A stretch of DNA of 58,581 nucleotides from a virus (IMGVR_UViG_3300025096_001538:1-58581), one strand, 5' to 3'. Positions 25,939 through 58,581 are shown, counted from the first letter of the stretch. The notes: a model not told the origin generated them from the sequence alone. A program made the numbers and translations.

Positions 25939-26328
25939 TTAAATTAAATCTTCAATCATTTCCTCAATTTTTTTATTGAGAATCTTTATTTCTTTTAATC
26001 CTTTTTTAATCAAGGTAGGTTTACCTTTATTTATACCCGAAAAAACCTTACCCATATTTACTTTCCAACTGTCTCCATAGATTCTTAACATTAAAAAGGA
26101 GCGTTTTTCATCACTCATTTTTTCATCAATAGTAGATTCAACTTTAAAAGGTGGTCTATCTATATCCGTATAAACTTTTCCTAACTCTACATCAGTTCCA
26201 CCCAATCTTTCAAATTCCGTAAGACCATCTGGTTCTCTACCTTTCATCACAGGTTTAGACCACCTTTTTGGTAAATCTCTGAATGAAGTATCATTCCATT
26301 CTTTTAATAATTCTTTTAGTTTAATCAT
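25939..26328 (-). CDS. Leader-bearing small protein (putative internal head protein)
   Basis: 129 residues from the ATG at 26328, which overlaps the Nudix gene stop as ATGATTAA. The N-terminus M-I-K-L-K-E-L-L-K-E is the shared leader, with predicted prohead-protease cleavage after E10 (L-x-E). The mature part is basic, with a helical C-terminus (about 98-129). No known domain was recognised. It is the last gene of a three-gene leader-bearing block inserted between the LamG-type and fibre genes. Confidence 0.7.
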   Translation of the reverse strand: MIKLKELLKEWNDTSFRDLPKRWSKPVMKGREPDGLTEFERLGGTDVELGKVYTDIDRPPFKVESTIDEKMSDEKRSFLMLRIYGDSWKVNMGKVFSGINKGKPTLIKKGLKEIKILNKKIEEMIEDLI

Positions 26329-26722
26329 TCTCAATAGTCTCCTTAACCCACTTATTTATTGGACTTGGTAAATCACCTACATCAAAATATCCCCAATCTA
26401 TATGTTCATGATTTATTCTTGGGATAAATTTTGTATTTCCCTTTAATACATATAAATAGAACTCTCCACCATTATCTTTCTTATAGGTACTATTTAAGTC
26501 TGGAATACCATTTAATACTATCTGTGTTTCTTCCGTAAATTCTCTAACTGAACCTGCTAATGGTTCTTCTCCAATTTGTATATGACCTTTAGGAATATGC
26601 CAAGTACCAGATTTCTCTCCTAAACATAATAATACTTTATCATTCCAATAATATAAAACTCCACCAGTATCATCAGAATCGTTCTCGTGTCCTTCAAATA
26701 ATAAATCTTTTAGTTTAAGCAT
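26321..26722 (-). CDS. Nudix hydrolase with capsid-targeting-like leader
   Basis: 133 residues. A complete Nudix box occupies residues 46-68: G46, E52, R60-E61, E64-E65 and a final hydrophobic; the usual Gly near the end is Gln67. Nudix enzymes cleave nucleoside diphosphates linked to another group. Substrates range from oxidised nucleotides to NAD, capped RNA and diadenosine polyphosphates, and the substrate here is unknown. The protein begins M-L-K-L-K-D-L-L-F-E, the shared leader, with predicted cleavage after E10. That suggests delivery with the phage DNA rather than ordinary cytoplasmic expression. Both gene ends overlap neighbouring leader-bearing genes by eight bases. Confidence 0.88.
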   Translation of the reverse strand: MLKLKDLLFEGHENDSDDTGGVLYYWNDKVLLCLGEKSGTWHIPKGHIQIGEEPLAGSVREFTEETQIVLNGIPDLNSTYKKDNGGEFYLYVLKGNTKFIPRINHEHIDWGYFDVGDLPSPINKWVKETIEND

Positions 26723-27098
26723 TTGAATTACCTGTTTCTTTTCTTACGAAATCTATAACATCACCCTTATCTCCATTACCTTTAAAGGCTATTTTCTTAT
26801 ATGCATCAACCCACATCTTATCACCTTCAATTTGAATATATGCAGTTTTCATACGACCCGTTTTTTCTACTTCTGACCAAGAAATAATTTTAACTCTTGG
26901 ATGTCCACCTATTGGCCATATTCTATTATACTCTTTATCTCTTGCAGTTATGGATTTATAAGTTTCTTTATATTTTGCTTCCCTTAAAGGTGTTTTTGGA
27001 TGTGTTTCCATTACATCTTTAAATGTGGGAAGTGGATCACCAAACTTTCTATCCCACGCGTATTTGCTTTCTTTTAATAATTTTTTTAATTTTACCAT
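26715..27098 (-). CDS. Leader-bearing protein, paralogue of the 38140 gene at its N-terminus
   Basis: 127 residues. The start M-V-K-L-K-K-L-L-K-E is the shared leader. The next about 25 residues (S-K-Y, R-x-F-G-D-x-L-P-T, V-M-x-x-H) match those of the protein at 38140-38559, although the rest differs. The mature protein is basic, with short beta-strands in its second half (W-x-E-V-E-K, A-Y-I-Q-I). The function is unknown. It is first in the block followed by the Nudix gene. Confidence 0.7.
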   Translation of the reverse strand: MVKLKKLLKESKYAWDRKFGDPLPTFKDVMETHPKTPLREAKYKETYKSITARDKEYNRIWPIGGHPRVKIISWSEVEKTGRMKTAYIQIEGDKMWVDAYKKIAFKGNGDKGDVIDFVRKETGNSNA

Positions 27099-27142
27099 TT
27101 TACTTTCCTTTTTATACTATTAAATATCAAATTACCTATAAT

Positions 27143-32541: not shown

Positions 32542-32583
32542 TATAAATATTATAATTTGTAAAAACTGTCATATATAAATATC
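32542..32583 (-). promoter_or_regulatory. Two late-promoter-like elements
   Basis: Sense-strand GATATTTATA (32574-32583) and AATATTTATA (32542-32551) lie 52 and 20 bases before the ATG at 32521. Both lie after the major capsid terminator. Confidence 0.5.
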
Positions 32584-32646: not shown

Positions 32647-34293
32647 TTAAACGTAATTAATATCAGCTACGATTACCTTACCATAGAATTCAGGTCTTAC
32701 CATCTTCTTCGCGTATCGTGTCATTACACCCTTACGAGGAGTGAAATTAACAGGATCGTAAACAAGTGGAGTCATGATTAATGGTACATACGGTGCGTAT
32801 ACAGCTCCAGTTTCAAGGAAATTAGATCCTCTGAAACCAAGTAGGATGTCATTTTCTAACATATAAGGGTTTTTATAAACCGTAAATCTGTTATTCAATG
32901 CACCAACTTTCTGTACACCCATTGCATATGATGTATTGCTCGAATCACCATCTGAATCAGAAGCATATCCAGGAATACTTTCGATAACGGTTGCTGTTTC
33001 AGGTGAAACCACCATGAAATTAGCACCACCACGAAGAGTTTTCTGATGGATTGTGTTACTTACTGCTTGCAGTTTGTTTCCAAGAGTCTGGAACCACTCA
33101 CCTTTCGTGTAAGCGTTAGAGTTACCAGAAACTTCAGTAAATACTGAAGAAGCTGAATCATACTCAAATCCAGTCTTAGCTGACCAATACTCAGTCTTAG
33201 CGTCTGCGTTCTGTTTCAACATATCAAGGATTTCCAAATCAATTTCCATTGAAATGTACTCACTCAACATAGAAGTAAGTTCTGCTTCTGCATCAACTGA
33301 ATGATAAGCGTTAAGGTCTTGAGCTAACTCAGGAGTCCAGATAGCTTTAAGTTTACGAGTTTTCGCAACTATACTAACTGAACGAAGAGCTATATCAATC
33401 TCAGGAATATCAACATCGTCTGCTGAATTAGGTGAAGGAGTAGTAAAAGTACTCTGTTCAAAATCACCTCGTGATGTATCACCAGGTTGTTTATGAAATT
33501 TCACCCAAGACATCTTACCATTAGCACCACTTGAACCTGCACCTCTTACATAAAAATATATGTAAGTGGAATCAGTTGTAGTGTATGCTGGATAAGTTGC
33601 TGTAATGTTTGAACCACTAATTGCGAATGCCCTTGCACCTTCCCAATCTACATTAGACCCAGAGTTTAACTGAGTTTTTGCAATTCTCATCTTAAAGATT
33701 CGATTTGCTAATGTACCTGCGACTGCTACTGACGAACTCAATGAAGGTTCGAACTCAACATCTGCCCATGAAGCAGAAGTTCTTGTGATGGATCCAGATG
33801 GGATACCAGGAGATGTTTGGTCATTAATCGAATATCCAAACCTACCTGCACCATATAGACCACCAGCTGCATCTGCGTTAGATGCGGATGTGTTACCGTG
33901 TATATACGATCCCTTAGAGTGTTGAGCAGTTTGAGTTGTACCGTATTTAAAGTCAAGATAGAAAATCAGACCACTTGGTAGGTTCATAGGTTGAACACTA
34001 ACAAAGTCTTGTGCTGCTAACTCACCAAAGATTCTACGAACCAAAGGAAGTGCTACACCTGACCATTCTTCTGAATTCGAAGCTGTACCAGTTTTAGATG
34101 ATTCATCTATTAACTGACGAGCTTGGTTTTCAAGAAGAACTGCCATTCCATGTTGCTTATTTGTATCTTCAAGACCTTCAAGTAATCCAGTGGGCTCCCA
34201 CTTATTGACTAGCTTTTGGGTTTCTGCTAAACGACTGCGTTCGGAATCATAGCTATCCATCAGTTTTTCGATGGACTGTAAATTGTCTGCCAT
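32647..34293 (-). CDS. Major capsid protein (gp23-like)
   Basis: 548 residues (T4 gp23: 521). It contains V-Q-P-M-N-L-P-S-G-L-I-F, A-I-W-T-P-E-L-A-Q-D-L-N-A-Y-H-S-V-D-A-E-A-E-L, F-M-V-V-S-P-E-T-A, Y-A-P-Y-V-P-L and a final T-R-Y-A-K-K-M-V-R-P-E, which match the HK97-fold gp23 family. The N-terminal propeptide ends at L61-I62-D63-E64, followed by Ser65. This is almost the same position as the T4 gp23 cleavage site (E65) and gives the protease specificity (L/I-x-E) used for the leader analysis. It assembles with the scaffold and portal and is matured by the gp21-like protease. Confidence 0.95.
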   Translation of the reverse strand: MADNLQSIEKLMDSYDSERSRLAETQKLVNKWEPTGLLEGLEDTNKQHGMAVLLENQARQLIDESSKTGTASNSEEWSGVALPLVRRIFGELAAQDFVSVQPMNLPSGLIFYLDFKYGTTQTAQHSKGSYIHGNTSASNADAAGGLYGAGRFGYSINDQTSPGIPSGSITRTSASWADVEFEPSLSSSVAVAGTLANRIFKMRIAKTQLNSGSNVDWEGARAFAISGSNITATYPAYTTTDSTYIYFYVRGAGSSGANGKMSWVKFHKQPGDTSRGDFEQSTFTTPSPNSADDVDIPEIDIALRSVSIVAKTRKLKAIWTPELAQDLNAYHSVDAEAELTSMLSEYISMEIDLEILDMLKQNADAKTEYWSAKTGFEYDSASSVFTEVSGNSNAYTKGEWFQTLGNKLQAVSNTIHQKTLRGGANFMVVSPETATVIESIPGYASDSDGDSSNTSYAMGVQKVGALNNRFTVYKNPYMLENDILLGFRGSNFLETGAVYAPYVPLIMTPLVYDPVNFTPRKGVMTRYAKKMVRPEFYGKVIVADINYV

Positions 34294-34329: not shown

Positions 34330-35691
34330 TTATAGAATATTAGCTAACTTCTGGAAGCGATTCTTCATATCAAATCCTTCTTCAATCACTTTTGGTGTTG
34401 ATTTAGGTTTGGTAGAAGCAGTTGCTTTAGAGGCGGTGCCTTTACTCTCTTTAATTGGTTTTGGCGTACTTGCGTTTGCCGTTTTGCTACCAAAAGATTC
34501 TGCCAAGGTGGCGAATACCAACTTAACTTCTCTTAGGTTTGCTGCTCTATCGAAGGTTTCTACTACTTTCAACTTTTGTTCATTAGTTAAACCGTGTGCA
34601 CGGAATAATTTGTTAGTGAACAATAGTTTTGCGTTAAGTAGATTTACTTCATTCAACTTAGAACGAAGATACTTCACTACCTTACGATGCTCATCAAGTT
34701 CTGATGTAAGTTTAGATACTTGCTCTTCAGCTTTCTCACCATCTTCATCATCACCCTCTGAAAGTGCTTTCAAGATTTCTTCAAGGTCAATGTCATCTTC
34801 CTCGTTGACTTCTAAGTCACCATTACGGGCTTCAAAATCATCTTGTTCTTTGACTTTGGCGTATTGAACACCATTGACTTCAACTAAATCATCCACTTCC
34901 TCATCTTCTGAGTTTTCGTGACCTGCTGCTGGTGCGTCTGCGGCTGCTGGTTCTTCCGAACCTTGACCGATATCAGACGAATCTGCTGCGTCGTCAGCGA
35001 CTTTATTATCGGCATCACCGATATCAGAAGATACATCATTTTCTGCTAAATCTGCTTGGTCTGCAGTTTCTGCTTCATCAGAAGAAAGACCATCACCGAC
35101 TTCACCTTCCTCATATTCCTCGTTGACATCAGCATCATCTGCTTCATCTTCAAGTTCTTTAAGGATAGATTCTAAGTCGAGTTCATCTTCATCTTCACCT
35201 TCCTGTTCTTCAACAGGAGCTTCAACTTCTTCTTCTTCTTCAGATACTACAGGAGCATATTTAACACCATTAATTTCAATCACACCTTCTTCAGGTATTG
35301 CTGGTTCTTCTGCCCATTCTTCATCTTCATCTGCTACTGCAGGTTCTTCAAAAGGAACTTCTTCGCCAGGAACTTCGTCTTGTGCGACGATAGGTTCTTC
35401 AACGGGAACTTCTTCACCAGGAACTTCATCCTGTGCGACAATAGGTTCTTCACCAACTTCAGGCTCAACTGCTATTTCAGGTTCTTCTTCAGCTTCTGGT
35501 TCTTCCTGTTCTACAGGAACTTCTTCACCAGGAACTTCTTCTTCACCTTCCATTTCAGATTGAATCTTCTGTGAAAGCATGGATTGAATACGGGGAGTGA
35601 AAGCTTCTTCAAGAGCTATTTTAGCGTTTGCAAGTGCCGTTTCTCGGACAGCTTTAGCGTCTGCTATTGCGTCTTTTAAAAGATCATCCAT
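34330..35691 (-). CDS. Prohead core scaffolding protein (gp22-like)
   Basis: About 453 residues from the ATG at 35691, which has a GGAGA site; the longer reading from 35724 adds eleven residues with no such site. The N-terminus is a conserved-looking helix (D-D-L-L-K-D-A-I-A-D-A-K-A-V-R-E-T-A). Then comes a very acidic Glu/Pro/Val region (about 50-290) with 17-residue repeats, and a coiled coil (about 325-380) of the kind expected in scaffolds. The C-terminus is basic. The place between the protease and major capsid genes is that of T4 gene 22. T4 gp22 is 269 residues, so the acidic region accounts for the extra length. It is expected to be degraded to small acidic peptides during maturation. 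Confidence 0.82.
   Translation of the reverse strand: MDDLLKDAIADAKAVRETALANAKIALEEAFTPRIQSMLSQKIQSEMEGEEEVPGEEVPVEQEEPEAEEEPEIAVEPEVGEEPIVAQDEVPGEEVPVEEPIVAQDEVPGEEVPFEEPAVADEDEEWAEEPAIPEEGVIEINGVKYAPVVSEEEEEVEAPVEEQEGEDEDELDLESILKELEDEADDADVNEEYEEGEVGDGLSSDEAETADQADLAENDVSSDIGDADNKVADDAADSSDIGQGSEEPAAADAPAAGHENSEDEEVDDLVEVNGVQYAKVKEQDDFEARNGDLEVNEEDDIDLEEILKALSEGDDEDGEKAEEQVSKLTSELDEHRKVVKYLRSKLNEVNLLNAKLLFTNKLFRAHGLTNEQKLKVVETFDRAANLREVKLVFATLAESFGSKTANASTPKPIKESKGTASKATASTKPKSTPKVIEEGFDMKNRFQKLANIL
35354..35455. repeat. 51-bp imperfect tandem repeat in the scaffold gene
   Basis: Two copies (35354-35404, 35405-35455) encode the 17-residue unit V-P-G-E-E-V-P-x-E-E-P-x-V-A-x-D-E. Further degenerate copies flank them (for example near 35510-35545). 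The differences are at wobble positions, so the repeat is older than the perfect duplications elsewhere. Confidence 0.85.
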
Positions 35692-35785
35692 TATGTTTCT
35701 CCATAAGAGTTTGTTTCCAAGCATAAAATACTTGGATGGAATTAATAAAGTTATTAGGAACTTTAATGCGGTTTACATTATCGGT

Positions 35786-36126: not shown

Positions 36127-36810
36127 TTAATCGGTTTCGTTTTCACCACTCCAATTTGCATCAACATAATTAAAGAATTTTGATTTTTCTTCATCATCAA
36201 GTTGATCTGGTTCAGATACACCCCATTTTTCGAGTGCAGATTTGAAAAAATCTTCATATGAACCTTCTTGAACTGTGTCTGCTTCTAATTCATCACCATC
36301 TCTGTATGATTTACCTTCTGCTGTATCAACTGGAGTTGATTCATTTATTTCATAATATCTACCAAGAATGTGTCCCATATCTTCATATAGTCCACTCATT
36401 CTTTCTTGTAATGATTGAGCTTCTGTAGCAACTTTCTTAAATTGATTAGAAAGACCTGTTAATTCTTTCATATTACGATTTACCGTGATTTTATCAAACC
36501 AATCTTCGGTTTCTTGTAAGGTATGTTGTTTTGCAGTTTCTGCTAAACGAGAAAGTCTTTCTGCTAATTGTCTTAAATTACCTTCACGATAAATTTCATT
36601 TCCAAATGCATTGAAATTACCAACTTCACCCATAAACTCTTTTACATTTACTTTTTGAGTAGATTGTCCATAGACATCTTCTACTATATCAGTAAGTTTT
36701 GTTGATTTTTTTTGGGTTTTAAATCCCATATCAATATTTGAGAATGCATTGCGTGAAACCATTCCACCTAACATTGCATGTTCTTTAATTAAATCTTTTA
36801 GTTTAGCCAT
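36127..36810 (-). CDS. Leader-bearing structural/internal head protein
   Basis: About 227 residues from the ATG at 36810, which has an AGGAGA site (the reading from 36828 is less likely). It starts M-A-K-L-K-D-L-I-K-E, the shared leader, with predicted cleavage after E10. The middle (about 70-150) is helical/coiled coil. A second potential protease site (I-N-E) follows near 180. The C-terminal module (Y-E-D-F-F-K-S-A-L-E-K-W-G-V...F-F-N-Y-V-D-A-N-W) is one I associate with uncharacterised phage virion proteins. It has its own upstream promoter-like element. An internal head protein role is inferred. Confidence 0.68.
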   Translation of the reverse strand: MAKLKDLIKEHAMLGGMVSRNAFSNIDMGFKTQKKSTKLTDIVEDVYGQSTQKVNVKEFMGEVGNFNAFGNEIYREGNLRQLAERLSRLAETAKQHTLQETEDWFDKITVNRNMKELTGLSNQFKKVATEAQSLQERMSGLYEDMGHILGRYYEINESTPVDTAEGKSYRDGDELEADTVQEGSYEDFFKSALEKWGVSEPDQLDDEEKSKFFNYVDANWSGENETD

Positions 36811-36829: not shown

Positions 36830-36839
36830 TATAAATATC
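36830..36839 (-). promoter_or_regulatory. GATATTTATA element
   Basis: Sense-strand GATATTTATA lies 19 bases before the ATG at 36810 and touches the stop of the preceding gene. Confidence 0.45.
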
Positions 36840-44618: not shown

Positions 44619-44628
44619 TATAAATATA
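44619..44628 (-). promoter_or_regulatory. TATATTTATA element after portal gene
   Basis: Sense-strand TATATTTATA lies 34 bases before the ATG at 44584, in the 66-base gap after the portal stop. Confidence 0.45.
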
Positions 44629-46546: not shown

Positions 46547-48121
46547 TTATTTTATTAACCAAGTTAGATCTTCTTTTGTATTTCCAGTTTCCATTACCCA
46601 TTCATCATTTTGATTGTCGGTCTGTGTATAAACTGGTTCATAATCTAACATTTTACTTAGGACTGTTTTTTGTAGGGCAATTCCTTCTGCGTTCAACCTT
46701 AATGCAGTATCTCTTACCCACAATCCAATTGCTAAACTCATTGCAAGGTCATCATTATATCCTTCCATTGCTTCAGCTCTGTTGTTGTGCCATATAAACA
46801 CAAATAATTCATCAATTAATCTGTCCGAATGAACGATAACAGATTTTTCTCTGAAATATTCTTCTAATTTCGCGATTACTAATGGTCTTGTTTTCATTGT
46901 CATACTAAATCCAGGTACCATTTGTCTTTCGGAATTCCTATATCGGTTTGTTACTTGTCTTGCAACATCAACATACCTTAAATCTTTACTTGTATAAAAT
47001 AGATTATCATATTCTCTATCAATTACTTGTTGAATAGCTGCCCAACCAATACTTGAGTTCTCAATAACTAATAACGCGTTATTAAACTCCATAGCAGTAT
47101 TCATACATAAATTACCAAAATCTTTGGTAGAAATCTTTCCCTTGTATTCTGCAACTTGTTCCATGCTCTCTATTTCAATTACATGAAATGCAGAAAAATC
47201 AGCTCCATCACCACGGGCGACATCAGCAGCCACTACATAATTTTTATTATAATTTGGTTGTCTCCAAATCCACAAGTTACTATCAATTCCTCGTTTCTCA
47301 ACAGGTTCTTCAATTTGTTTTTCTCTGTATTCCTCTAAAATAACACCATCAATAACACCTTGTCCAGAAGTGATAAAGTCACAATCACATTCTTGTGCTG
47401 CTCCACTTGGTCCCAATAACTTATCTTGCTCATCTCTCCAATCTTGTTCTCTATCAGGATGAACCGTCCAATGTAATTTGATTGTATTCCAATCATTCTC
47501 ACCTTCTTCTGCACCTACCCAAGTTTTGTGAAACCAATTACCAACACCATTTGGTGTAGATAGGGCAATACATTGTCCACCAGTTGATAGAGTACTTTGT
47601 GCAGCAGTCCATATTGTATCAATCTTGTCAATAAATGCTGCCTCATCAATAACGAGTAAAGATAGTGCCTCTGAACGACCTGCGTCCTCAGTACTTGATA
47701 TTGCTTTTACTTGTGAACCATTTGAATATCGTAGTGAGAGTTTGTTATCCTCAACACAATTTGACCTTACCCAACTCGGTAGGTTTGCGTGCATAACTCG
47801 GATTTTCGTAACCAAGTTTTTAGCGGTATCTTGTTTAGTTGCAATAACCAATATATTCTTGTCTGATTGAAATGTCATCATCCATAAAGAGTATCCAGCG
47901 GTTAATGTTGATATTCCCAACTGGCGTGCCTTCAGAATAACATTATAATTATTATTTTTAAAATCATTTAGAGAAGCTTCTTGAAACGGATATAAAGCAA
48001 AAGGAACTTTACCTCTTAGTGGATGTTGAATTACAGCATACTTTTTTAGGAAGTACACAGGGTCTTGTGCACATTTTAAATATTCCTTTTTGATGACTGA
48101 CTTTATATTCTTATCACTCAT
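46547..48121 (-). CDS. Large terminase subunit (gp17-like)
   Basis: 524 residues from the ATG at 48121, chosen because it makes a TAATG overlap with the upstream gene; a longer reading from 48157 is unlikely. The ATPase has a Walker A variant A-R-Q-L-G-I-S-T (65-72), Walker B L-L-V-I-D-E (155-160) and a coupling motif near S-T-P-N-G. The nuclease domain carries A-A-D-V-A-R-G-D (about 300), with further acidic residues at V-I-E-N-S and D-D-L-A-M. It pumps DNA through the portal encoded next. T4 gp17 is 610 residues. The small subunit (gp16) was not identified. Confidence 0.95.
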   Translation of the reverse strand: MSDKNIKSVIKKEYLKCAQDPVYFLKKYAVIQHPLRGKVPFALYPFQEASLNDFKNNNYNVILKARQLGISTLTAGYSLWMMTFQSDKNILVIATKQDTAKNLVTKIRVMHANLPSWVRSNCVEDNKLSLRYSNGSQVKAISSTEDAGRSEALSLLVIDEAAFIDKIDTIWTAAQSTLSTGGQCIALSTPNGVGNWFHKTWVGAEEGENDWNTIKLHWTVHPDREQDWRDEQDKLLGPSGAAQECDCDFITSGQGVIDGVILEEYREKQIEEPVEKRGIDSNLWIWRQPNYNKNYVVAADVARGDGADFSAFHVIEIESMEQVAEYKGKISTKDFGNLCMNTAMEFNNALLVIENSSIGWAAIQQVIDREYDNLFYTSKDLRYVDVARQVTNRYRNSERQMVPGFSMTMKTRPLVIAKLEEYFREKSVIVHSDRLIDELFVFIWHNNRAEAMEGYNDDLAMSLAIGLWVRDTALRLNAEGIALQKTVLSKMLDYEPVYTQTDNQNDEWVMETGNTKEDLTWLIK

Positions 48122-48486
48122 TATAATTTTCCAAATACAAATCCTATTACTAACCACAAATATTGGTTTTCATACCATTTAGGTTCAACTAATTTAACCA
48201 TCTTTTCGTTCATTTTCTCACGAGCATGTAATAAAACAATCTGTTTGTCTTTTGCGTTTAATAGTAAAGAATCAAGTTCTGTCTGATTCTCCAACTTTTT
48301 CATTAAACCTTCATAATCACTAATTACTAATTTCTGTGATGATATCAATGAATCGGCCTTTTCAATTTTACCTTCCCATTGAGCATCTCGTTGTTTAATC
48401 ATTTCCAACGCTTCTTCTTGTGTAAAAGTTTGTTGCCCAAATAGTGGGATGGATAATAATAATATCCATAGATATTTCATTTTCAT
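48121..48486 (-). CDS. Secreted or membrane-bound coiled-coil protein, spanin-like
   Basis: About 121 residues from the ATG at 48486. A signal peptide or anchor (K-Y-L-W-I-L-L-L-S-I-P-L-F-G) is followed by a coiled coil (about 20-95) and a C-terminal hydrophobic segment (Y-L-W-L-V-I-G-F-V-F). This layout fits a periplasm-spanning lysis protein, but other envelope roles are possible. It is coupled to the terminase gene (TAATG). Confidence 0.5.
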   Translation of the reverse strand: MKMKYLWILLLSIPLFGQQTFTQEEALEMIKQRDAQWEGKIEKADSLISSQKLVISDYEGLMKKLENQTELDSLLLNAKDKQIVLLHAREKMNEKMVKLVEPKWYENQYLWLVIGFVFGKL

Positions 48487-49398: not shown

Positions 49399-50078
49399 TA
49401 ATTAACTCCTTTTGGTAATAAGTCAACCAACTTTCCACCTTTCCATTCTCTACCTTTAACTTTACCCATTATTCTGTGGTCTTTCCACTTACCCCACAAT
49501 TTTTTATTATTCGCGAAAACTTTTTGTCCACTTGGATTCACTTGTCTATATCCACTATCGCTTCCCATTTTCTTTGAACCAGGTTCAGGCGTTGATGGGA
49601 TTCCACCACTTTTAGTTCCTTCAGGCGGTGTAGTAGGTTTAACTAATGTTTCTGAAGTAGAATAAAAATTTGCCGTTTCAGGTGGAATAGTATATTCTTG
49701 TTTTCTATGAAATCCGTGTATACCATAAACCCTTTGTTTAGGTGATAATGGTGGTGTATCATCTCTAAGTTCTTCTGCCTTAACTTCTGAATTACCATCG
49801 GGATCACTTAAATATTTATATAATTTACCTGCATCTCTTTTTGCCCGTCTTTCATTGTTCAAACTATCTGGTCCACCATAGATATTATCTGATGCTGGAA
49901 AATCAATTTGTTGCATTCCACGAGTTAAACTTGCAGGTCCTACATATCGTCTTTCACCTCGTTTGGTATATAAACCATCTGGCCATGCATCACCAATATC
50001 TGTCGTGCCAGTGCCTCCACCCCCAGAATATGAGCCCTCCTTAATGATTTCCCATAATCCCTGTTCAAATGTGTTCAC
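49398..50078 (-). CDS. Gly/Pro-rich protein with I-I-K-E leader
   Basis: About 226 residues from a GTG at 50078 that forms a TAGTG overlap with the upstream gene (a TTG at 50090 is the alternative). The first residues (N-T-F-E-Q-G-L-W-E-I-I-K-E-G-S-Y) end in an I-x-E site. The remaining part is rich in Gly, Pro, Tyr and Lys and looks largely disordered, with a basic C-terminal patch (K-G-R-E-W-K-G-G-K). It is probably packaged with the DNA if the leader is used. No domain was recognised. Confidence 0.58.
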   Translation of the reverse strand: MNTFEQGLWEIIKEGSYSGGGGTGTTDIGDAWPDGLYTKRGERRYVGPASLTRGMQQIDFPASDNIYGGPDSLNNERRAKRDAGKLYKYLSDPDGNSEVKAEELRDDTPPLSPKQRVYGIHGFHRKQEYTIPPETANFYSTSETLVKPTTPPEGTKSGGIPSTPEPGSKKMGSDSGYRQVNPSGQKVFANNKKLWGKWKDHRIMGKVKGREWKGGKLVDLLPKGVN

Positions 50079-50803
50079 TATGCTCTCCAACTTATCATAA
50101 GGTTTTGTCCGTCAAGTTTTTCCGTTACATTATCTTCTCGGTGTAACTCTCCACCTAAACCTCTTTCTATGATATTCTTCAAATCTTTAAATGTTAAATC
50201 TTTATCATCAAAAGGATGTGCCATATGTCCGTATGCTCCACCCTCTGTAATTAATTCTCTAAGTTCATCACTCCACCAATCTTTTGTTAATGGATTATAT
50301 TTTTCAACATGAAGTCTTGGTCGTTTCTTATCACCATCAAAATTCTCATCAGAATCGGCCGATTTTGTTGATGCATCAGGACCAACTCCGGCTGCCATTG
50401 GTGGACCGGCTATTAATTGATCTTTATCAACTCCCATCCATTGTATTACCTTCCAACCTAAACTATCCATTACATTTCGTAAAGTCTTTTTATACTTTTT
50501 TACCTCTCCGTGAGATATTGGATTTGTTGCCCTGTAAGACATAGTATAATCTTCTTCTGGATCCATTGCTCCTTTACTTAATATATACTGGACTACTTTC
50601 CATCCTAATTCGTTCTGCATTGATTCAACCCATTTTTCCGTTTCTTGTTTATATTGGGTTAAAGTTCTGAAAAATGTTGGAGGTCCGTCATCAACTGGTG
50701 CATTTACACCCATAGTTCCTTCTTTTAAAATCTCTGTAATATCATTTTCAACTAAAAAATCTCCTATGACATCACCACTAAATTCTTTTAAATAATCTCT
50801 CAT
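50078..50803 (-). CDS. Leader-bearing protein ending in the catalytic fragment of a split ligase
   Basis: 241 residues. The N-terminus has stacked protease sites (F-L-V-E near 16-19, I-T-E at 22-24, I-L-K-E at 25-28). Residues 29-180 carry two similar helices with the segment G-W-K-V-(V/I)-Q (67-72 and 116-121), so a duplicated module. After another site (L-I-T-E, ending at 187), the last 54 residues read G-A-Y-G-H-M-A-H-P-F-D-D, L-K-N-I-I-E-R-G-L-G-G and E-K-L-D-G-Q-N-L (K229-L-D-G232), which is motif I of the nucleotidyltransferase/ligase superfamily. The chain stops nine residues later, so the rest of the ligase fold is missing here. It is present at the C-terminus of the 952-residue protein at 52763. 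Confidence 0.7.
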   Translation of the reverse strand: MRDYLKEFSGDVIGDFLVENDITEILKEGTMGVNAPVDDGPPTFFRTLTQYKQETEKWVESMQNELGWKVVQYILSKGAMDPEEDYTMSYRATNPISHGEVKKYKKTLRNVMDSLGWKVIQWMGVDKDQLIAGPPMAAGVGPDASTKSADSDENFDGDKKRPRLHVEKYNPLTKDWWSDELRELITEGGAYGHMAHPFDDKDLTFKDLKNIIERGLGGELHREDNVTEKLDGQNLMISWRA

Positions 50804-51360
50804 CTTGTTTCAACTTTATTTTTATCCAACCACCATTGAACTTTATTAACAACTACATCAAAATTTCTGTGGCTTCTACTCAAATCAAATGAACTCCAAT
50901 AATCTTTTACCAAATAATATGCTGGTTCTACATCTTTTGAACCAGGTCTGATATTTCCTACAACTTGATTTGATTGCATATCTGAATCTACATGATATTT
51001 CAAATAATCATAATCAAATGGATTTGAATAATAATCATTTTCATAAATCCATTTTAAAATCGGGTCAAACTTTACGCCCTTTAAGAACCAATCAGCAGGT
51101 CCTCTAAATTTACTATGTCCCCAACCTTGTACATAAGCGTAATACTGATACATTATGTTAGTAGGATATCTTTTATTACCTGGCCTTCCCTTGTAATCTA
51201 ATTTATTAAACCCCTCTTTCATAACTTCCTTACAAAGTTTTTTTGTACCAGATGGTATCTTACTTTTTTTACCAGTTTCTTTTTGAGCCTGTTTAATAAT
51301 TTTCTCAAAATCTGATGTAGTTACTATTCGTTCTACAATAAGTTCTTTTAATTTAATCAT
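50800..51360 (-). CDS. Leader-bearing hypothetical protein
   Basis: 186 residues, starting M-I-K-L-K-E-L-I-V-E, the shared leader, with predicted cleavage after E10. The mature protein is rich in Tyr, Trp and Lys (Y-Q-Y-Y-A-Y-V-Q-G-W-G-H-S-K-F-R-G-P-A-D-W-F). It may be a compact domain; no enzyme family was recognised. Both ends overlap neighbours as ATGA. Confidence 0.65.
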   Translation of the reverse strand: MIKLKELIVERIVTTSDFEKIIKQAQKETGKKSKIPSGTKKLCKEVMKEGFNKLDYKGRPGNKRYPTNIMYQYYAYVQGWGHSKFRGPADWFLKGVKFDPILKWIYENDYYSNPFDYDYLKYHVDSDMQSNQVVGNIRPGSKDVEPAYYLVKDYWSSFDLSRSHRNFDVVVNKVQWWLDKNKVETR

Positions 51361-51617
51361 CTTTTTTCCAAGTCAAATGCTCTGGTCAACATAGCGCCGG
51401 CATGTTGAAGTTCAAGACGAGCTTTTTCATACTTCTTAAAGTATCTCATTAAAGTTCTATTCTTACTCTTTTTAATATCATCCTCAAGTTCATACCAAAG
51501 TCGTCCATCTCGTGATTTATGAATATAATCACTACCAACTTTTAGTAATTTTTGGTGATTCCATGAAATATCTGAAAGGTCTACCTTTTCTTCTAATATT
51601 TTTTTAAGTTTAATCAT
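51357..51617 (-). CDS. Leader-bearing small basic protein
   Basis: 86 residues, starting M-I-K-L-K-K-I-L-E-E, the shared leader. The mature part is helical with many Lys, Arg and Leu residues, resembling a small DNA-associated internal protein. The start makes a TAATG overlap with the previous gene. Confidence 0.65.
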   Translation of the reverse strand: MIKLKKILEEKVDLSDISWNHQKLLKVGSDYIHKSRDGRLWYELEDDIKKSKNRTLMRYFKKYEKARLELQHAGAMLTRAFDLEKR

Positions 51618-51889
51618 TATCTTTTGTAATAATCTTCAAAACGTTTGTAAGCTGCCCGTTCATCAAATTTACCCTGACGTTTTACACCAATTTTTATTGC
51701 ATCTATAAATGCATGCTTCAAACCAGGAGAATTAAAATCTGACATCATTTTATTGATGTTATCGATTGACCTTCCAATTCCTGCAATGGCGTTTGTTAAT
51801 GGCTTCTTAAGCCGTTTAGCCTGTTTTTCATCTGCGGCGGCCACGCTATCTTCATCAGCCTCACTCATCATATCTTTTAATTTAATCAC
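51617..51889 (-). CDS. Leader-bearing small protein
   Basis: 90 residues from a GTG start. The leader M-I-K-L-K-D-M-M-S-E has Met in place of Leu before the Glu. The mature part has an acidic start and a basic helical C-terminus (K-I-G-V-K-R-Q-G-K, Y-K-R-F-E-D-Y-Y-K-R). It opens a run of three leader genes coupled by overlaps and has a promoter-like element 29 bases upstream. Confidence 0.63.
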   Translation of the reverse strand: MIKLKDMMSEADEDSVAAADEKQAKRLKKPLTNAIAGIGRSIDNINKMMSDFNSPGLKHAFIDAIKIGVKRQGKFDERAAYKRFEDYYKR

Positions 51890-51918: not shown

Positions 51919-51928
51919 TATAAATATT
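51919..51928 (-). promoter_or_regulatory. AATATTTATA element
   Basis: Sense-strand AATATTTATA lies 29 bases before the GTG at 51889 and overlaps the end of the previous gene by two bases. Confidence 0.4.
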
Positions 51929-52499: not shown

Positions 52500-52763
52500 C
52501 TAACTCCTCTGTAACGAATCAAGTTTAAACTTAAATCTTAGTTCTTCAAGTTCTTGATCTCTTTTCATTAATTCTATTTCGGCCTGAATATTTTTAATTT
52601 GACCTTGTTTTTCTATTTCTTCTTCCAATGATGTTACTCTACTCTCCAATTTGTACCATCCACCACCTAATGCGCCCAACAATCCTATAATATTAACAAT
52701 AAACTTAATATTACTCATCTTTTTCATCTTAAAGATTTCTTGTATATCTTCGAAATCTTCCAT
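52500..52763 (-). CDS. Small membrane protein with coiled coil
   Basis: 87 residues. A membrane segment at about 19-37 (I-K-F-I-V-N-I-I-G-L-L-G-A-L-G-G-G) is followed by a Glu/Lys coiled coil. It starts at the stop codon of the 952-residue gene. A role in the envelope or lysis is possible; nothing more can be said. Confidence 0.58.
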   Translation of the reverse strand: MEDFEDIQEIFKMKKMSNIKFIVNIIGLLGALGGGWYKLESRVTSLEEEIEKQGQIKNIQAEIELMKRDQELEELRFKFKLDSLQRS

Positions 52764-55621
52764 TAGAATGTCATAAGTCCTGTTATTTGATTAATCGGTG
52801 CAAATGCTCCTGTAAATTTAAATGTTTTTCCATTATACTTGAAAACTATTCCTTCACTTGGAACTATTGCATCTAATCCACCTATCCTATTCAATTTATC
52901 CAACTGTAATTTTAATGTATTGAGTTTTTTCAAATCTCCACCACTTCTAACATTCTTAATTGCTGCATCTAATTGTTTTTTTACTCGTTGAACCGTAGAA
53001 TCTGGACTTGCTGCTAACCAACCACTTACATTTTTCATTATTTCTGAACCAACCTCAAAAAATAACTCCTCAAATGGTTTCATATTCTTTTTAACCATTT
53101 TTGCGTGGTCTGCTTTATCGGTAGATAATACCCAATCTAAAAATTTTGGATGGTCTTTTAAATCTTTTCTAATCATTGGTATTTTATATGACTTATCAAA
53201 GAATGCCCATCTCTTTGTAAGTTTTTCTAATATTTTATTGGGTATCTTTGGATAATCAGTTTGACTGGCCCCATTCATAATCCATTCTTGCCAAAACATT
53301 TGATGATACATCGAAAGAGTATCATTATCACCTAAACTATATTCCTTTTGTAATTTATTTAATTTACTTATAAAATACTTTTTCTTCTTATCAAAATCTT
53401 GATGTTTAGGTACGGTTAAAAAGTTTGGTTTTCCAATCTTATAATGTTTCTGTATATTTTTATTTACTTGTTTAATCATACCAGCTAACATTCTTGCACT
53501 ATCTTTGACCTCACCAATTGCATTTCCATCATCATCATATTCTAATGCCCCATGAAATACAATTTCGGCTTTGTCATAATTTATAACATTGGATGACTTA
53601 GGCCACATAACTTCAAGATTCATCCAAGCTTTACCATTCTTAAATATCTTATTTCGTTGTTTATCCGAAAGTGAACCAATGGCCCTTTCCAAATCTTTCA
53701 TAGCAAAACTAAATGCGTCCGCGATATCACCCCTACCTTTAAACTTAGAAATTATTCCACTTGTACTTAGTGCAGTTTTACCACCATCCTTTAAGTGTCC
53801 TTTGTTTCTGGCAGCTACTAATTTTCCACCAGTTGCTTCTGTAATCTTTTGTTCCTTCCAATTAAATAATTTCTTAAATTTATTATGCATCATTAAAAAG
53901 ACACCTTCATCCCAATAACCAAATGCATCTTTAAATAATTTTTTCCTTTCTTCATCCGAAAATTTCTGTGAACCAAGTAATTCTCTCATTACCGTTCCAC
54001 TAACTTCCTTTCCACCAACCTTAACTGATTGATGTGGGGCAGTCATAAAATATCCGTGTTCCTCATATCCCTTTAGATTATTCTTATTCTTTTTATAATC
54101 TTGGAAATATGATAAACCACCATCTTTCCTTTTACCACCTGCCAATCTTCCGGCATCCTTTTGTCCGAATATATATATCACGGCAGTGGTCTCGGAATCG
54201 TATTTTTTTAGCACATTATTTGCCACCAATGGAACTTTTTCCTTGATAATACGATTTTTAGGTACACCCATCTTGGTCATATGACGAAGCTTCTCTCTGT
54301 AATTCATAGGATGTTTAGGTGGTTTTTTGATATCTGATGTTGTGATGTAAGCGTCATCTACCCTTGACTTTAACCACTTGTAAGTCTTTAAGTGATGTGG
54401 GCCAAATGGTTGATATCTACCACCATAGATACCTATTACTTTTTTAATTTTTTTATTATCTTCTGATAACCACTCGTCAAAAACTTCCATAGCCTTTCTC
54501 ATACCACTTGTCTGTGATTTATGATGTTTCGCTCTATTATACATCGTTTCCACAATTTCTTTTTGTTCTGATTTAGACCTATTCGTAATTGACTTTATAG
54601 TTTTATTTGCAGTTCTAACTGAATCATAACCAATTCCCTTTATATGATCCAATTTAGTTCGTGGCCAATAATATTGTTCTCCTGCCTCGTTAAGTTGTTC
54701 TAATTCATGTTCTTTTAGAACTGGATTTACAAGTTCCCCTACAAGTGCACTATATTTAGGTTTTTTTGTAGTTGGAACGAATTGTTTATATTTTTTATCT
54801 GGAGTATGTTCATATTCTTTTACAATAAAACTAAGTTTAGACTTATAATCATTTGGAAGTGTATTTTCTATACCAAGAAACTTTACTGCTCCTGGAACAA
54901 GATAAAGTATCATTTCCCTTTTATTTAAGTTCATAATTAATTGACTTGAAGTCCAAAGTTTATTTTGTGCTCTAACTAAATCATACTTGGGTCCCTTATC
55001 TTGTATATGATTATAAAACGCAGGAAATAATTCTTTATAATGTGGTGTCTGGTGTACAACATTTAATGCATTCATCAATCTTAACTCTGAAGATAATTTA
55101 TCATTTCCTCTTTGATAACCTTGTTCAGTATGTTCTATTCCGTGATTAGTTCTTACTATTGGTTCTTTACTTAAATCTTTTATCTTTACTACAGGCTTAA
55201 CTCTACTTGTATTTTCTATCACTACGAGTTTTTTACCATCACCTACCAATGTATGACCTTTAATCCCACCATGATATGATACCAATGATTTTACAACATC
55301 GTGTAAAGTTGTCTTACGAAGTGCCTCTCTAATTCTTGCACCATCTTTGGACATCGCTTTCTTTTTCTTTGACTTATCAAAATCTTTCTCATCTCGTTTT
55401 ACGAATAATGCAGAGTTTACCAAACCGATTCCATGAGAATTCATTCCCTCTGACCAATCTGTATCTTGGTCTATTACATAGCATAACTCAACACCATAAC
55501 CAGTTAGTTCCCTAACTACTTTAAGATTCGGATTATAATTTCTATCTCGGTTTTTACCGATAACCATATCATTACCGAACATTGATGCCACTGCTATACA
55601 TTCTTCTATGTGTTTCTTCAT
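52763..55621 (-). CDS. Multidomain polyprotein: Ntn-hydrolase, HxGH nucleotidyltransferase, ligase-like domain
   Basis: 952 residues. (1) Residues 8-about 300 resemble Ntn-hydrolases of the penicillin acylase/acyltransferase (C45/C59) group: Cys8, G-K-N-R-D-R-N at 22-28 and R-T-N-H-G at 157-161. Cys8 directly follows I5-E6-E7, a prohead-protease-type site. (2) Residues 313-387 are a small basic domain bounded by L-N-E|A (310-312) and L-S-E|D (385-387). (3) Residues 388-595 are an HxGH-type nucleotidyltransferase (G-G-R-Y-Q-P-F-G-P-H-H, 400-410), ending at I-T-E|A (593-595). (4) Residues 596-952 are a ligase/nucleotidyltransferase-like fold: A-R-N-K-G-H-L-K-D-G-G (604-614), M-N-L-E-V (667-671), E-G-I-V-F-K-Y (923-929) and K-T-F-K-F-T-G. 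Its K-x-D-G motif I is missing here and is encoded at 50078. Acyl, NAD-related or RNA substrates are possible; none is shown. Confidence 0.72.
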   Translation of the reverse strand: MKKHIEECIAVASMFGNDMVIGKNRDRNYNPNLKVVRELTGYGVELCYVIDQDTDWSEGMNSHGIGLVNSALFVKRDEKDFDKSKKKKAMSKDGARIREALRKTTLHDVVKSLVSYHGGIKGHTLVGDGKKLVVIENTSRVKPVVKIKDLSKEPIVRTNHGIEHTEQGYQRGNDKLSSELRLMNALNVVHQTPHYKELFPAFYNHIQDKGPKYDLVRAQNKLWTSSQLIMNLNKREMILYLVPGAVKFLGIENTLPNDYKSKLSFIVKEYEHTPDKKYKQFVPTTKKPKYSALVGELVNPVLKEHELEQLNEAGEQYYWPRTKLDHIKGIGYDSVRTANKTIKSITNRSKSEQKEIVETMYNRAKHHKSQTSGMRKAMEVFDEWLSEDNKKIKKVIGIYGGRYQPFGPHHLKTYKWLKSRVDDAYITTSDIKKPPKHPMNYREKLRHMTKMGVPKNRIIKEKVPLVANNVLKKYDSETTAVIYIFGQKDAGRLAGGKRKDGGLSYFQDYKKNKNNLKGYEEHGYFMTAPHQSVKVGGKEVSGTVMRELLGSQKFSDEERKKLFKDAFGYWDEGVFLMMHNKFKKLFNWKEQKITEATGGKLVAARNKGHLKDGGKTALSTSGIISKFKGRGDIADAFSFAMKDLERAIGSLSDKQRNKIFKNGKAWMNLEVMWPKSSNVINYDKAEIVFHGALEYDDDGNAIGEVKDSARMLAGMIKQVNKNIQKHYKIGKPNFLTVPKHQDFDKKKKYFISKLNKLQKEYSLGDNDTLSMYHQMFWQEWIMNGASQTDYPKIPNKILEKLTKRWAFFDKSYKIPMIRKDLKDHPKFLDWVLSTDKADHAKMVKKNMKPFEELFFEVGSEIMKNVSGWLAASPDSTVQRVKKQLDAAIKNVRSGGDLKKLNTLKLQLDKLNRIGGLDAIVPSEGIVFKYNGKTFKFTGAFAPINQITGLMTF

Positions 55622-57333
55622 CTCCGTCCACCCTTATCAAAATCTTTTGAGAATTTTTTGAGTTTATCAAATGCTCTAAACTTTTTCATCTTTTCTTGTT
55701 TATGCCATTTCATCTTATCAAATACTTTCATTCTCATATGTTGTTTTACTATCCAATAAATATCAAGAACATTGCCTCCCATAGATTTTATCCACTTGGC
55801 ATATTTCTTAACGAGTTTTGCTGATACATGCTCGTGTCCGTAATGTGTCCAAAACCCTTTCTTTGGATGTAGTTTTGCAGTTGAGTCTTTACCTATATCG
55901 TGAAATAGAGCGGCAAGTGCAAAATCTATATCACCAGTTTTAAGTGCTCTGTTAGTAACGGCAATCGTGTGTTTTAACACATTACCTTCTGGATGAGCAT
56001 CTCTCCGCTGGTCGTAATTTTTGAGATTGTAAACTCTTTTCTTTAAATCACTTGGTAGTGCATTATAAATGTCTTTGAATTTCTTCGGTTTTTTTCTCAT
56101 TGCTATTTCGTTCATTTTAAGTTTCTTTCTCAACTTTTCAATTTCCCTTTGAACTTTCTTTTGGGCTGAACTTCCTGGCATCATTTTCATTGCCATTGTA
56201 TAAAGTTTATACAACTTTGCCTTATCACTATTTTCATTTAAGAATTTATCTTTTTCCTTGTTTTGTATTGCTTTACCAATATCCTTCCCCTTTAAATCAC
56301 CCGAAACATCACTACCTCTTACCGATAGTTTAAATCTAACTAACTTTTTAAAATCTTTTCCAATGTACTTACCCCATTTAAGAATTTGACCTTTACTCAA
56401 TTTAGTCTTTTCTTGAAACTTCTTAATCATAAAGATATTCTCAGGTTTAAAATTCTGTAAAGAATTCAAAAACTGAATATCGACAATTTCTTGATTAGGA
56501 TAGGCTAAACCATTCAATTTCCGTAATGAATTTACATCATTTTTTCGTAAAATCCAAGATAAAAATAAAATATAATCGTTTTCATTTATGTACGGAACTT
56601 TAACTTGAAATCCAGGTAATATCTGTTTTGTAAATCCTAATGAATCAGCAAGTTGTAAATACTTTTTAGTTGATTTTGCCTTTTTGATTGACTTGACAAA
56701 TTCATCTCGTATCCTTTCTGTACTTACACCTTTAAGACTTGGATTTTGTCTTAAAGCCTTTTCTGTTTCTTTCCCTAACTTACCACCAAGTGCCCCCTGA
56801 AATCTTAATGCTCTCATCTTTCTTAACGGATCTTCATCAAATCTTTCGACAGCATTTCCAACCGTTCTGATTTTTTTCCTTTTCAAATCTGCTATTCCAC
56901 CAACCAAGTCTACAATCTCTCCCCTATCCATATCGTAGAACAACGCATTTATGGTTAAATCTCTCCGTTTAACATCACCTTCGATGTCGGTATAATCAAC
57001 TGAACTTGGGCGTCTCCCTTTACCAATATCCTTTCTGAATGTTGCTATTTCGTGTCCAGCCACTATCACGACACCGAATTGTTTTCCAACCTCTACGGTT
57101 TTCAATCCACCTTTTTTTGCTATTGCCAATACCTCGTCAGGTTTAGCGTCGGTGGCCAAATCAAAATCTTTTGGGTTCTTTCCTAATATTGCATCCCTAA
57201 CTGCTCCACCAACAACAAAAAGTTTTTTCTTGTTTTTCTTAAAAAGTTTGTGTATATTCTTTATGTCAGAAGGGATGTTGAGCCTAAATTTAGAATACTC
57301 ATTCAACGGAATTAAATTAGAAAGATAAATCAT
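55618..57333 (-). CDS. CCA/poly(A)-type nucleotidyltransferase with HD domain
   Basis: 571 residues from the ATG at 57333 (a TTG at 57345 is the alternative). It begins M-I-Y-L-S-N-L-I-P-L-N-E|Y, an L-x-E leader. Residues 37-about 230 are a class-II CCA-adding/PAP head: V-V-G-G-A-V-R-D (40-47), the metal pair in D-F-D-L-A-T-D (56-62), R-R-D-L-T-I-N-A-L (123-131) and E-D-P-L-R-K-M-R-A-L-R-F (167-178). A helical neck follows. Residues 410-571 are an HD phosphohydrolase-like domain with H455, H478-D479 in H-D-I-G-K, and H500/H502. L-N-E|N (365-367) and M-N-E|I (407-409) flank the linker, so proteolysis could separate the two enzymes. Possible roles are tRNA 3'-end repair or RNA tailing with cyclic-phosphate removal. 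Confidence 0.82.
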   Translation of the reverse strand: MIYLSNLIPLNEYSKFRLNIPSDIKNIHKLFKKNKKKLFVVGGAVRDAILGKNPKDFDLATDAKPDEVLAIAKKGGLKTVEVGKQFGVVIVAGHEIATFRKDIGKGRRPSSVDYTDIEGDVKRRDLTINALFYDMDRGEIVDLVGGIADLKRKKIRTVGNAVERFDEDPLRKMRALRFQGALGGKLGKETEKALRQNPSLKGVSTERIRDEFVKSIKKAKSTKKYLQLADSLGFTKQILPGFQVKVPYINENDYILFLSWILRKNDVNSLRKLNGLAYPNQEIVDIQFLNSLQNFKPENIFMIKKFQEKTKLSKGQILKWGKYIGKDFKKLVRFKLSVRGSDVSGDLKGKDIGKAIQNKEKDKFLNENSDKAKLYKLYTMAMKMMPGSSAQKKVQREIEKLRKKLKMNEIAMRKKPKKFKDIYNALPSDLKKRVYNLKNYDQRRDAHPEGNVLKHTIAVTNRALKTGDIDFALAALFHDIGKDSTAKLHPKKGFWTHYGHEHVSAKLVKKYAKWIKSMGGNVLDIYWIVKQHMRMKVFDKMKWHKQEKMKKFRAFDKLKKFSKDFDKGGRR

Positions 57334-57429
57334 TACCACTTCCAACCTAACATTGTCTTAGTTCTAAGATAATGTTTTGCTGCCTCTTCCATTCCATACT
57401 CTTTATCTATCTTTGGATGCCAAGTATCT
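57333..57429 (-). pseudogene. Stranded 3' coding remnant of the 57430-57729 gene
   Basis: If one copy of the 34-bp repeat is removed, the reading frame of the upstream gene continues for about 22 more codons (E-Y-G-M-E-E-A-A-K-H-Y-L-R-T-K-T-M-L-G-W-K-W). It then stops at a TAA that forms a perfect TAATG overlap with the next gene at 57333, as elsewhere in this operon. The segment now lies outside any frame and looks recently stranded. Confidence 0.75.
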
Positions 57430-57467
57430 TTAATCTTTATCTATCTTTGGATGCCAAGTATCTTTAA
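57400..57467. repeat. 34-bp perfect tandem duplication
   Basis: 57400-57433 is repeated exactly at 57434-57467. The length shifts the frame by one and introduces the current stop (57430-57432) of the gene that starts at 57729. Confidence 0.97.
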
Positions 57468-57729
57468 AGAACTTCATTGGCATTCCCTTGAAAGCATATT
57501 TACTTGAACCAGCCACCATTGTTTGCCAATCTTTTACTATCTTCCTTTTATCTACTATCCAAACATGCTTATATCTTCTACCATTAGAAATCCATTTATT
57601 CTGTACTGAACCAAATACAACTTTTGCCTTTTTATCTTTTTGGTTAGTCATGTAATATTTCCAAGCCCACGAAACACATTCACCACAAGCGATAACTTTT
57701 TCTGATATTAGTTGTCTTAGTTTAATCAT
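57430..57729 (-). CDS. Leader-bearing small Cys/His protein, C-terminally truncated
   Basis: 99 residues from the ATG at 57729 (AAAGGAG site; overlap ATGATTAA with the previous gene). Reading from 57783 is unlikely. The leader M-I-K-L-R-Q-L-I-S-E has predicted cleavage after E10. The mature part opens with A-C-G-E-C-V-S-W-A-W, then K-H-V-W-I-V-D and V-K-D-W-Q-T-M. The order Cys...His...Asp with these surroundings is reminiscent of small papain-fold (NlpC-like) hydrolases, but this is tentative. A 34-bp tandem duplication cuts off about 22 original C-terminal residues; the catalytic-looking residues are kept. Confidence 0.65.
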   Translation of the reverse strand: MIKLRQLISEKVIACGECVSWAWKYYMTNQKDKKAKVVFGSVQNKWISNGRRYKHVWIVDKRKIVKDWQTMVAGSSKYAFKGMPMKFFKDTWHPKIDKD

Positions 57730-58581
57730 CAAAAACTCCTTTTCTATCTGTATACCACTTACGATATTTTGCTGGAGTTCCAATAGTTATATTTTTTGTA
57801 AGTCTTTCAAGTTGGTCTTTTTGTTTCTTATCCCACTCCCAACCCTTAGCTACTCTACTCATTACAAATACTTCTTTAATCTTTGCACCATATATCAAAA
57901 TTTCATTCCACCAAACAGAACCCTTCGTGGATGGTGTTGCAAGGTTTTTCTTTACTAACTTTTTATGCTTTTTCAATAAATTATTTGTCAAGTCAATGTA
58001 GTCAGCAATTACTTCCTGTGCCTTTTTATTTAATATTTCTTTAACTGCCGCTTCATATTCTTTGATATTATCTGCAGTAGTTCCAAATTTTTCCATCATT
58101 TTATCTTTTGTTTCCCATTCAAAATCTCTCCACGATTCACGGCCAGGAATCTTTTTTCTTTTTGCCGCCGAAGCTACCAAATATGGATCATCAAAAACTA
58201 TTGTTGAATTAATCCACCTACGGCCTGTTTTATCTGGTTCACTTTGCATATCAATATATTTTCTTGCTAATAAAGTTCCTTCTATCCAAAATATAACTCC
58301 GCCTTCAGTCTGAATACCCTTTCCTTTAGCTAATTGAGAATCTTTACCGGCACGAGTAAATGTTGAGATTGATTTTTTACTACCAAGTAATTTTTTTACA
58401 TTTTCTAAATGATGAAGTGTTGTTACATGAAAAGAAGTTATTGGTATTTTACCAATTATTCTCTCCATTGACTTTGGATAGATGGGAATGGTTTTTTGAT
58501 TAAGAACCCAATCTAATGTTTTTCTCGTATGGGCAGGATACCACTTATCATCAATCCAATCTTCTAATAATAAATCTTTTA
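57722..58581 (-). CDS. Leader-bearing hypothetical protein, 5' end outside window
   Basis: The frame is open to the window edge: beyond the Met at 58468 it reads back through W-Y-P-A-H, D-D-K-W and then L-K-D-L-L-L-E-D at the very end. So the start codon lies just outside and the protein begins with the shared leader. About 285 residues are visible. The region S-F-H-V-T-T-L-H-H-L, K-S-I-S-T-F-T, G-G-V-I-F-W-I-E-G and G-R-R-W-I-N-S looks like a conserved fold that I cannot name. The C-terminal half is helical and Lys-rich. Confidence 0.7.
   Translation of the reverse strand, partial: KDLLLEDWIDDKWYPAHTRKTLDWVLNQKTIPIYPKSMERIIGKIPITSFHVTTLHHLENVKKLLGSKKSISTFTRAGKDSQLAKGKGIQTEGGVIFWIEGTLLARKYIDMQSEPDKTGRRWINSTIVFDDPYLVASAAKRKKIPGRESWRDFEWETKDKMMEKFGTTADNIKEYEAAVKEILNKKAQEVIADYIDLTNNLLKKHKKLVKKNLATPSTKGSVWWNEILIYGAKIKEVFVMSRVAKGWEWDKKQKDQLERLTKNITIGTPAKYRKWYTDRKGVFDD

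Follow-up and report, generated by a model that had tools for sequence, protein, structure and literature searches.

A recurrent N-terminal leader resembling the T4 capsid-targeting sequence on unrelated proteins of an uncultured far-T4 phage

Leader-bearing genes in the window

The DNA stretch IMGVR_UViG_3300025096_001538 (a virus record of 58.6 kb, the whole of which is called the window here) was a fragment of an uncultured T4-related phage of the marine far-T4 lineage. By gp23, its closest cultured relatives were Microcystis phage Mel-JY01 (55%), Flavobacterium phage immuto (52%), and Rhodothermus phage RM378 (37%), and this ranking placed the phage in the far-T4 neighbourhood. A ten-residue N-terminal leader, M-x-K-L-[KR]-x-[LIM]-[LIM]-x-E, which is the subject of this analysis, opened ten complete open reading frames (ORFs) of the window, all on the minus strand, and an eleventh that ran off the window end. 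The ten starts listed in the first-pass annotation (26328, 26722, 27098, 36810, 38559, 43051, 51360, 51617, 51889, and 57729) were all found on translation to encode the motif. A six-frame scan of the window returned exactly those ten copies, each at a start codon, and no other. When residues 2–15 of 59 ORFs were shuffled in 20,000 rounds, no match was obtained in 19,955 rounds and a single match in 45, against the ten observed.

The leader MIKLKELLKE (26299–26328) opened a 129-residue protein (25939–26328) with a mature isoelectric point (pI) of 9.1, and MLKLKDLLFE (26693–26722) opened a Nudix hydrolase (26321–26722; Pfam NUDIX, E = 9.9e-11). MVKLKKLLKE (27069–27098) began the ORF 26715–27098 and was followed there by the block SKYAWDRKFGDPLPT. 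The ORF 36127–36810, which adjoined a gp22-like gene, carried MAKLKDLIKE (36781–36810), a form like the MAKINELLRE of T4 gp24. The other complete copies were MKKLKEILHE (38530–38559) on 38140–38559, MIKLKDLLVE (43022–43051) on 42707–43051, MIKLKELIVE (51331–51360) on 50800–51360, MIKLKKILEE (51588–51617) on 51357–51617, the GTG-initiated (GTG)IKLKDMMSE (51860–51889) on 51617–51889, and MIKLRQLISE (57700–57729) on 57430–57729. In the truncated minus-strand ORF at the window end (57722–58579), for which an eleventh leader had been claimed at 58581, KDLLLEDW was visible with the leader part KDLLLE, and the full leader MIKLKDLLLE was present in contig L317, which matched the in-window query at 100%.

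The proteins behind the leaders (the cargo) had been described as diverging completely. This did not apply to 26715–27098 and 38140–38559, which shared the block SKYxxxRxFGDxLPT directly behind the leader. In the form SKYxxxRxFG[DE]xLPT, this second recurrent block stood behind the leader in many proteins of the lineage, including some in contigs L016, L024, L025, L206, and L276.

The leader in related phages

Judged from its distribution among sequences, the leader is characteristic of a large far-T4 lineage of uncultured phages. Start-anchored matches numbered 116 in 1189 ORFs of 80 gp21-bearing relatives, with loci partly redundant. The same motif was carried by 0 of 905 ORFs of contigs of equal G+C from HTVC010P-like podoviruses, the one virus group that formed the control; the loci share ancestry, so these counts are not independent. 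Across IMG/VR, a degenerate leader-DNA pattern was found in at least 120 stretches and its reversed pattern, which had one extra N and equal information content, in one. The 259 distinct tagged proteins, which had been chosen by the motif, fell into 88 cargo clusters (a small sample).

The selection-free test was the hold-out set alone, in which 123 distinct ORFs were picked by residues 1–5 only. Positions 7 and 8 were occupied by Leu, Ile, Met, Val, or Phe in 98% of these ORFs and position 10 by Glu in 87%, while position 9 and positions from 11 onward were unconstrained. Therefore, the conserved unit stopped exactly at the Glu. Since Leu4 belonged to the selection, position 7, hydrophobic in 98%, was the targeting position that was freely tested.

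The strict motif was absent from immuto, Mel-JY01 (first 50 kb), RM378 (part), HTVC008M, and T4 (one stretch). Immuto (L089, NC_055915) had repeated N-termini of its own, namely MENFDLKKFLVENKLT..., that is MENFDLKKFLVENKLTxNSxLLKE, and MKKSQLRxIIKEE. Nearly all of these were located at 102294–125468 of the record, around the head genes.

Prohead protease and gp23 processing site

The prohead protease, a gp21 homologue, was encoded on the minus strand at 41556–42176 (phrog_207, E = 9.8e-51), and its GELDHP and GISSRG motifs (H and S) aligned with T4 gp21. Among 50 contigs picked from IMG/VR by leader DNA only, gp21 was present in 28 and at least one of gp21, gp23, and gp20 in 32. In control contigs picked by a composition-matched reversed 17-mer, gp21 was present in 4 of 32 (Fisher P = 7e-5, or P = 0.02 with the comparison restricted to contigs of about 20 kb or more).

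The major capsid protein, a gp23 homologue (32647–34293, minus strand), contained a predicted processing site, QLIDE/SS, after residue 64; T4 removes 65 residues from its gp23. The pattern [QE][LI][LIV]xE was found at the gp23 processing position in 20 of 20 gp23s from leader-selected contigs. Among T4 sequences, gp24 starts with MAKINELLRE/STTT and IPI has ...TITE/A. Furthermore, a 485-residue protein of the window (40096–41553, minus strand) had an internal EELKE/DWWDDLGPEG at residue 95, and relatives placed a leader directly before DWWSDL.

The cleavage motif of T4 gp21 is L/I-X-E, and mutational data on the T4 capsid-targeting sequence (CTS) assigned residues 4 and 7 to targeting and residues 8 and 10 to processing (PMC9026906). 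These four residues corresponded to the positions conserved in the window leader.

Long leaders and leader exchange

A longer leader (type B, about 20–23 residues) combined a K-L-[KR]-x-[IL]-[IL]-x-E core with a second [LI]-x-E, and was seen in 55 distinct cases and in none of the controls. Two copies lay on the minus strand of the window, MKASRLREIIKEEVQNIINE (38967–39026) on 38559–39026 (phrog_1987) and MSHLNEDLFRKLVRELIKQELDE (43663–43731) on 43240–43731, close to gp21.

Homologous cargo was encountered with a short tag, with a long tag, or inside a fusion, and each time it started directly after [LIVM]-x-E. The cargo of 42707–43051 followed MIKLKDLLVE in the window, and its homologues (67–69% identical) followed MKITKTQLRRIIKEEIQLLTE in other contigs, including L030 and L040. 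The phrog_1987 cargo had the long leader in the window and the short one in L205, L294, and L311. The cargo of the end ORF was tagged in most phages and was fused within a 1196-residue protein in L324, where LDLLTE stood exactly in the place of the tag. Kinase and nucleotidase cargos recurred in immuto and HTVC008M, and their N-termini differed between lineages.

Cargo proteins

Pfam matches among the cargo representatives comprised NUDIX, ART-PolyVal, MPTase-PolyVal, zeta toxin/AAA kinase, Mom, GNAT, phosphoribosyltransferase, and phage lysozyme. In the window itself, the Nudix hydrolase was the sole identified cargo, in agreement with the first-pass annotation. Two nucleotidyltransferases proposed there as leader cargo did not prove to be such, as 55618–57339 and 52763–55621 both lacked the leader; 52763–55621 had gp21-type sites before its domains. 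The window cargos were mostly small and basic (pI 9–10). One small basic tagged protein (57430–57729, minus strand) contained CGECVSWAW...KHVWIVD...KDWQ, which by eye resembled a transglutaminase/papain-like triad, with no library match.

Pfam and PHROGs searches with the end ORF (57722–58579) gave no match. Its structural model had a pLDDT (predicted local distance difference test) of 75.6 with a disordered leader, and the PDB fold search returned no significant match, those to ADP-ribosyltransferases having E values of 0.6 to 6. Its motifs FHVT..STFT..WWNEIL looked ART-like by eye, but an ADP-ribosyltransferase, though possible, gained no support from these profile and fold searches.

In T4, IPI, IPII, and IPIII act as inhibitors of GmrSD enzymes (PMC12373910), and the target modified by Alt is RNA polymerase (PMC9026906). 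By analogy, the cargo types of the window lineage would fit delivered effectors, with possible roles in host takeover and counter-defence.

Proposed function of the leader

The sequence features of a CTS that were tested were all present: a short N-terminal leader (10–19 residues in this kind of protein) common to unrelated proteins, an L/I-x-E end, a gp21 gene, the matching gp23 site, and hydrophobic targeting residues. Very probably, the leader is a T4-type CTS that loads unrelated proteins into the head and is cut off by the gp21 homologue encoded in the same genome. This agrees with the earlier proposal, in which probable internal head proteins form a modular set behind T4-like leaders with a gp21 site at their end, and is supported by the gp21 homologue, the gp23-site match, the leader form of T4 gp24, the cargo swaps at the Glu, and the absence of the motif from the control ORFs.

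In the proposed mechanism, the first ten residues would form a short amphipathic peptide, of which residues 4 and 7 (Leu and Leu/Ile) would attach to the core of the prohead while the head is assembled. The gp21 protease would then cut after L/I-x-E (residues 8–10), and the mature protein would stay in the head and, by analogy with T4, probably enter the host together with the DNA. The longer leader would perform the same job. The kind of mechanism is known from the T4 CTS; its much expanded form is new.

Several observations weigh against this assignment. The Nudix hydrolase and 36127–36810 were acidic (pI 4.6 and 4.8), unlike the basic internal proteins of T4. No gp21, gp23, or gp20 match was found in 18 of the 50 leader-selected contigs, one of which was 207 kb long, most of them being fragments. 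About 1% of positions match the short L/I-x-E site by chance. Packaging, cleavage, and injection were all inferred. In the literature, the main text of a paper on Baltic Flavobacterium phages (PMC7077304) did not mention mass spectrometry and the paper did not deal with immuto, and a far-T4 paper (PMC4360716) mentioned neither internal proteins nor gp21.

Alternatively, the leaders could mark scaffold or core proteins of the gp67/gp68 kind, which serve head building rather than delivery. Relatives share the ORFs 36127–36810 and 43240–43731, near gp22 and gp21, and a core role is possible for both; the core proteins of T4 are likewise gp21 substrates. However, the tagged proteins were mostly variable and several matched enzyme families (NUDIX, ART, metallopeptidase, kinase, Mom, and lysozyme), which makes this explanation unlikely for the set.

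The shared N-terminus might instead be an expression element, that is a 5′ coding cassette, ribosome-binding site, or translation ramp copied between genes, with an unimportant peptide. The DNA similarity among the leaders noted in the first-pass annotation amounted to 70% identity over codons 2–10, slightly above the 63% expected from the peptides and the genome codon usage (P = 0.0005). The codon CTA was used at Leu4 in 4 of 10 leaders, whereas Leu4 codons in the wider set roughly followed ordinary start-region usage. Moreover, the similarity did not reach ahead of the ATG or beyond codon 10, with identities of 35% upstream and 28% downstream. The conservation was at the amino-acid level, as seen from Glu10 and the free position 9; the long leader on homologous cargo had a different DNA sequence, and the fused copy retained just the L-x-E end. 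An expression element is thus highly improbable. For the related suggestion that a 5′ DNA cassette spreads by recombination, a similarity limited to ten codons and just slightly over the codon-usage expectation is weak support. Least credible is a leader that directs proteins elsewhere (a membrane, another compartment, or a host protease) and resembles a gp21 site by coincidence, because membrane binding is possible for short amphipathic helices but the exact Glu boundary and the motif in gp23, polyprotein junctions, and T4 gp24 would be left unexplained.

If the leader is a CTS, hypothetical proteins of uncultured phages become a list of probable virion cargo that can be read from ten residues. 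In T4, the few proteins known to carry the tag comprise anti-restriction factors and one host-modifying enzyme, and the list would therefore be rich in candidates for early counter-defence and takeover. It would also represent a natural toolkit of protein-loading tags.

Protease sites beside enzyme domains

A 952-residue multidomain protein (52763–55621, minus strand) was composed of a C45/N-terminal nucleophile (Ntn) hydrolase domain with Cys8 after HIEE/, a nucleotidylyltransferase domain after WLSE/ (residue 387), and the C-terminal half of a ligase-like enzyme after KITE/ (residue 595). The first domain matched NCBIfam C45_proenzyme with an E value of 1.1e-8, under the curated cutoff, and a match was obtained in 15 of 17 relatives. 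Its model was poor (pLDDT 60.6); the first 29 PDB matches in the fold search were cysteine Ntn hydrolases or their relatives (best E = 2e-4). In every one of the 15 distinct Ntn variants (window 55601–55621; L407–L435), [ILMV]xE stood directly before the presumed nucleophile Cys8. This [ILMV]xE/C junction was kept in at least eight different upstream contexts, even where as many as 475 residues of a fusion lay ahead of the domain. By comparison, 0 of 35 other Cys residues in the Ntn proteins were preceded by [ILMV]xE, and the background was 1.4% per position.

The ligase-like domain (KLDGQN motif) was assigned by motifs seen by eye, with no Pfam model matched. It formed a single chain in many relatives (for example L064, L082, and L102), and was split at the same point across the whole window clade, where the N-half ended the protein 50078–50803 (minus strand) and the C-half lay within 52763–55621. 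In all six split variants, [LI]xE stood directly before the C-half at the split point, and unsplit forms had no site there. The N-half made up the last 54 residues of 50078–50803 (GGAYGH...EKLDGQNLMISWRA), after ELITE/. It started after L/I-x-E in most copies, with Met instead of Glu in about 6 of 27 forms. The sequence LLLM in place of LLxE was observed before the GGAYGH domain in L303, L331, L332, L341, L217, and L248, and translation could begin internally at its Met. In addition, very long fusions in L102 (a 2463-residue ORF), L107 (1643 residues), and L082 (1356 residues) united domains that were encoded separately in other phages of the group.

Because of the Ntn junctions, the sites at the split point, and the L/I-x-E before GGAYGH, we lean slightly toward a role of gp21 as an activator, which would expose the Ntn Cys, cut the fusions into enzymes in the prohead, and free the ligase C-half for reassembly with the N-half. 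The main alternative is autoproteolysis of the Ntn domain instead of cleavage by the prohead protease. If gp21 acts as an activator, the enzymes would have no activity in the cell that makes the phage and would gain it only within the virion, and the activation of packaged enzymes would be a possible new role of head maturation proteases.

Neighbouring head genes and a candidate late promoter

Other head genes on the minus strand were the portal (gp20 homologue, 44651–46534), the large terminase (gp17 homologue, 46547–48157), and an acidic scaffold-like protein in the gp22 position (34330–35724), assigned solely from gene order. No gp24 homologue was identified in the window phage.

The octamer TATTTATA (sense strand) occurred in 16 copies in the window, including those at 51919–51926, 44619–44626, 36830–36837, 32574–32581, and 18478–18485. 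Thirteen of the 16 preceded a gene start by no more than 120 nt, at distances of 19–106 nt, against an expectation of 12% (P = 5e-10). A copy was located 19 nt ahead of the leader gene at 36810 and another 29 nt ahead of that at 51889. The octamer, which is the reverse complement of the T4 late TATAAATA, may be the late promoter of the lineage, common to structural and leader genes.

Comparison with known systems

The window leaders resembled the CTS of T4 IPI, IPII, IPIII, and Alt in their length of ten residues, in the targeting and processing positions, and in the L/I-x-E end (PMC9026906; PMC3012670; PMC12373910), and also in the unrelated mature parts and the presence of the gp21 protease. 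They differed from the T4 internal-protein leader in their consensus, M-x-K-L-K-x-L-L-x-E, and in their number, with eleven copies in 33 kb. Unlike T4, the window lineage, one of uncultured marine far-T4 phages, has enzyme-rich cargo and two leader lengths on homologous cargo. The propeptide of T4 gp24, a documented gp21 substrate (PMC9026906), has nearly the same form (MAKINELLRE/) as MAKLKDLIKE/ of the window; however, gp24 is a shell protein of the capsid vertex, whereas the window tag sits on many other proteins.

The head propeptides of SPN3US and phiKZ are similarly cut after x-x-E by a gp21-family protease, and an identical 15-residue N-terminus is found on two diverged SPN3US proteins (PMC5694885). 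Their motifs, however, are A-x-E or S-x-E, and the SPN3US propeptides are mostly longer than 100 residues. Polyvalent proteins (Iyer et al. 2017, PMC5512222) are likewise multidomain and contain ART and metallopeptidase domains, and both their packaging and their cleavage into parts have been predicted. For these, release by an embedded autopeptidase was proposed, whereas the junctions in the window lineage carry the prohead protease motif.

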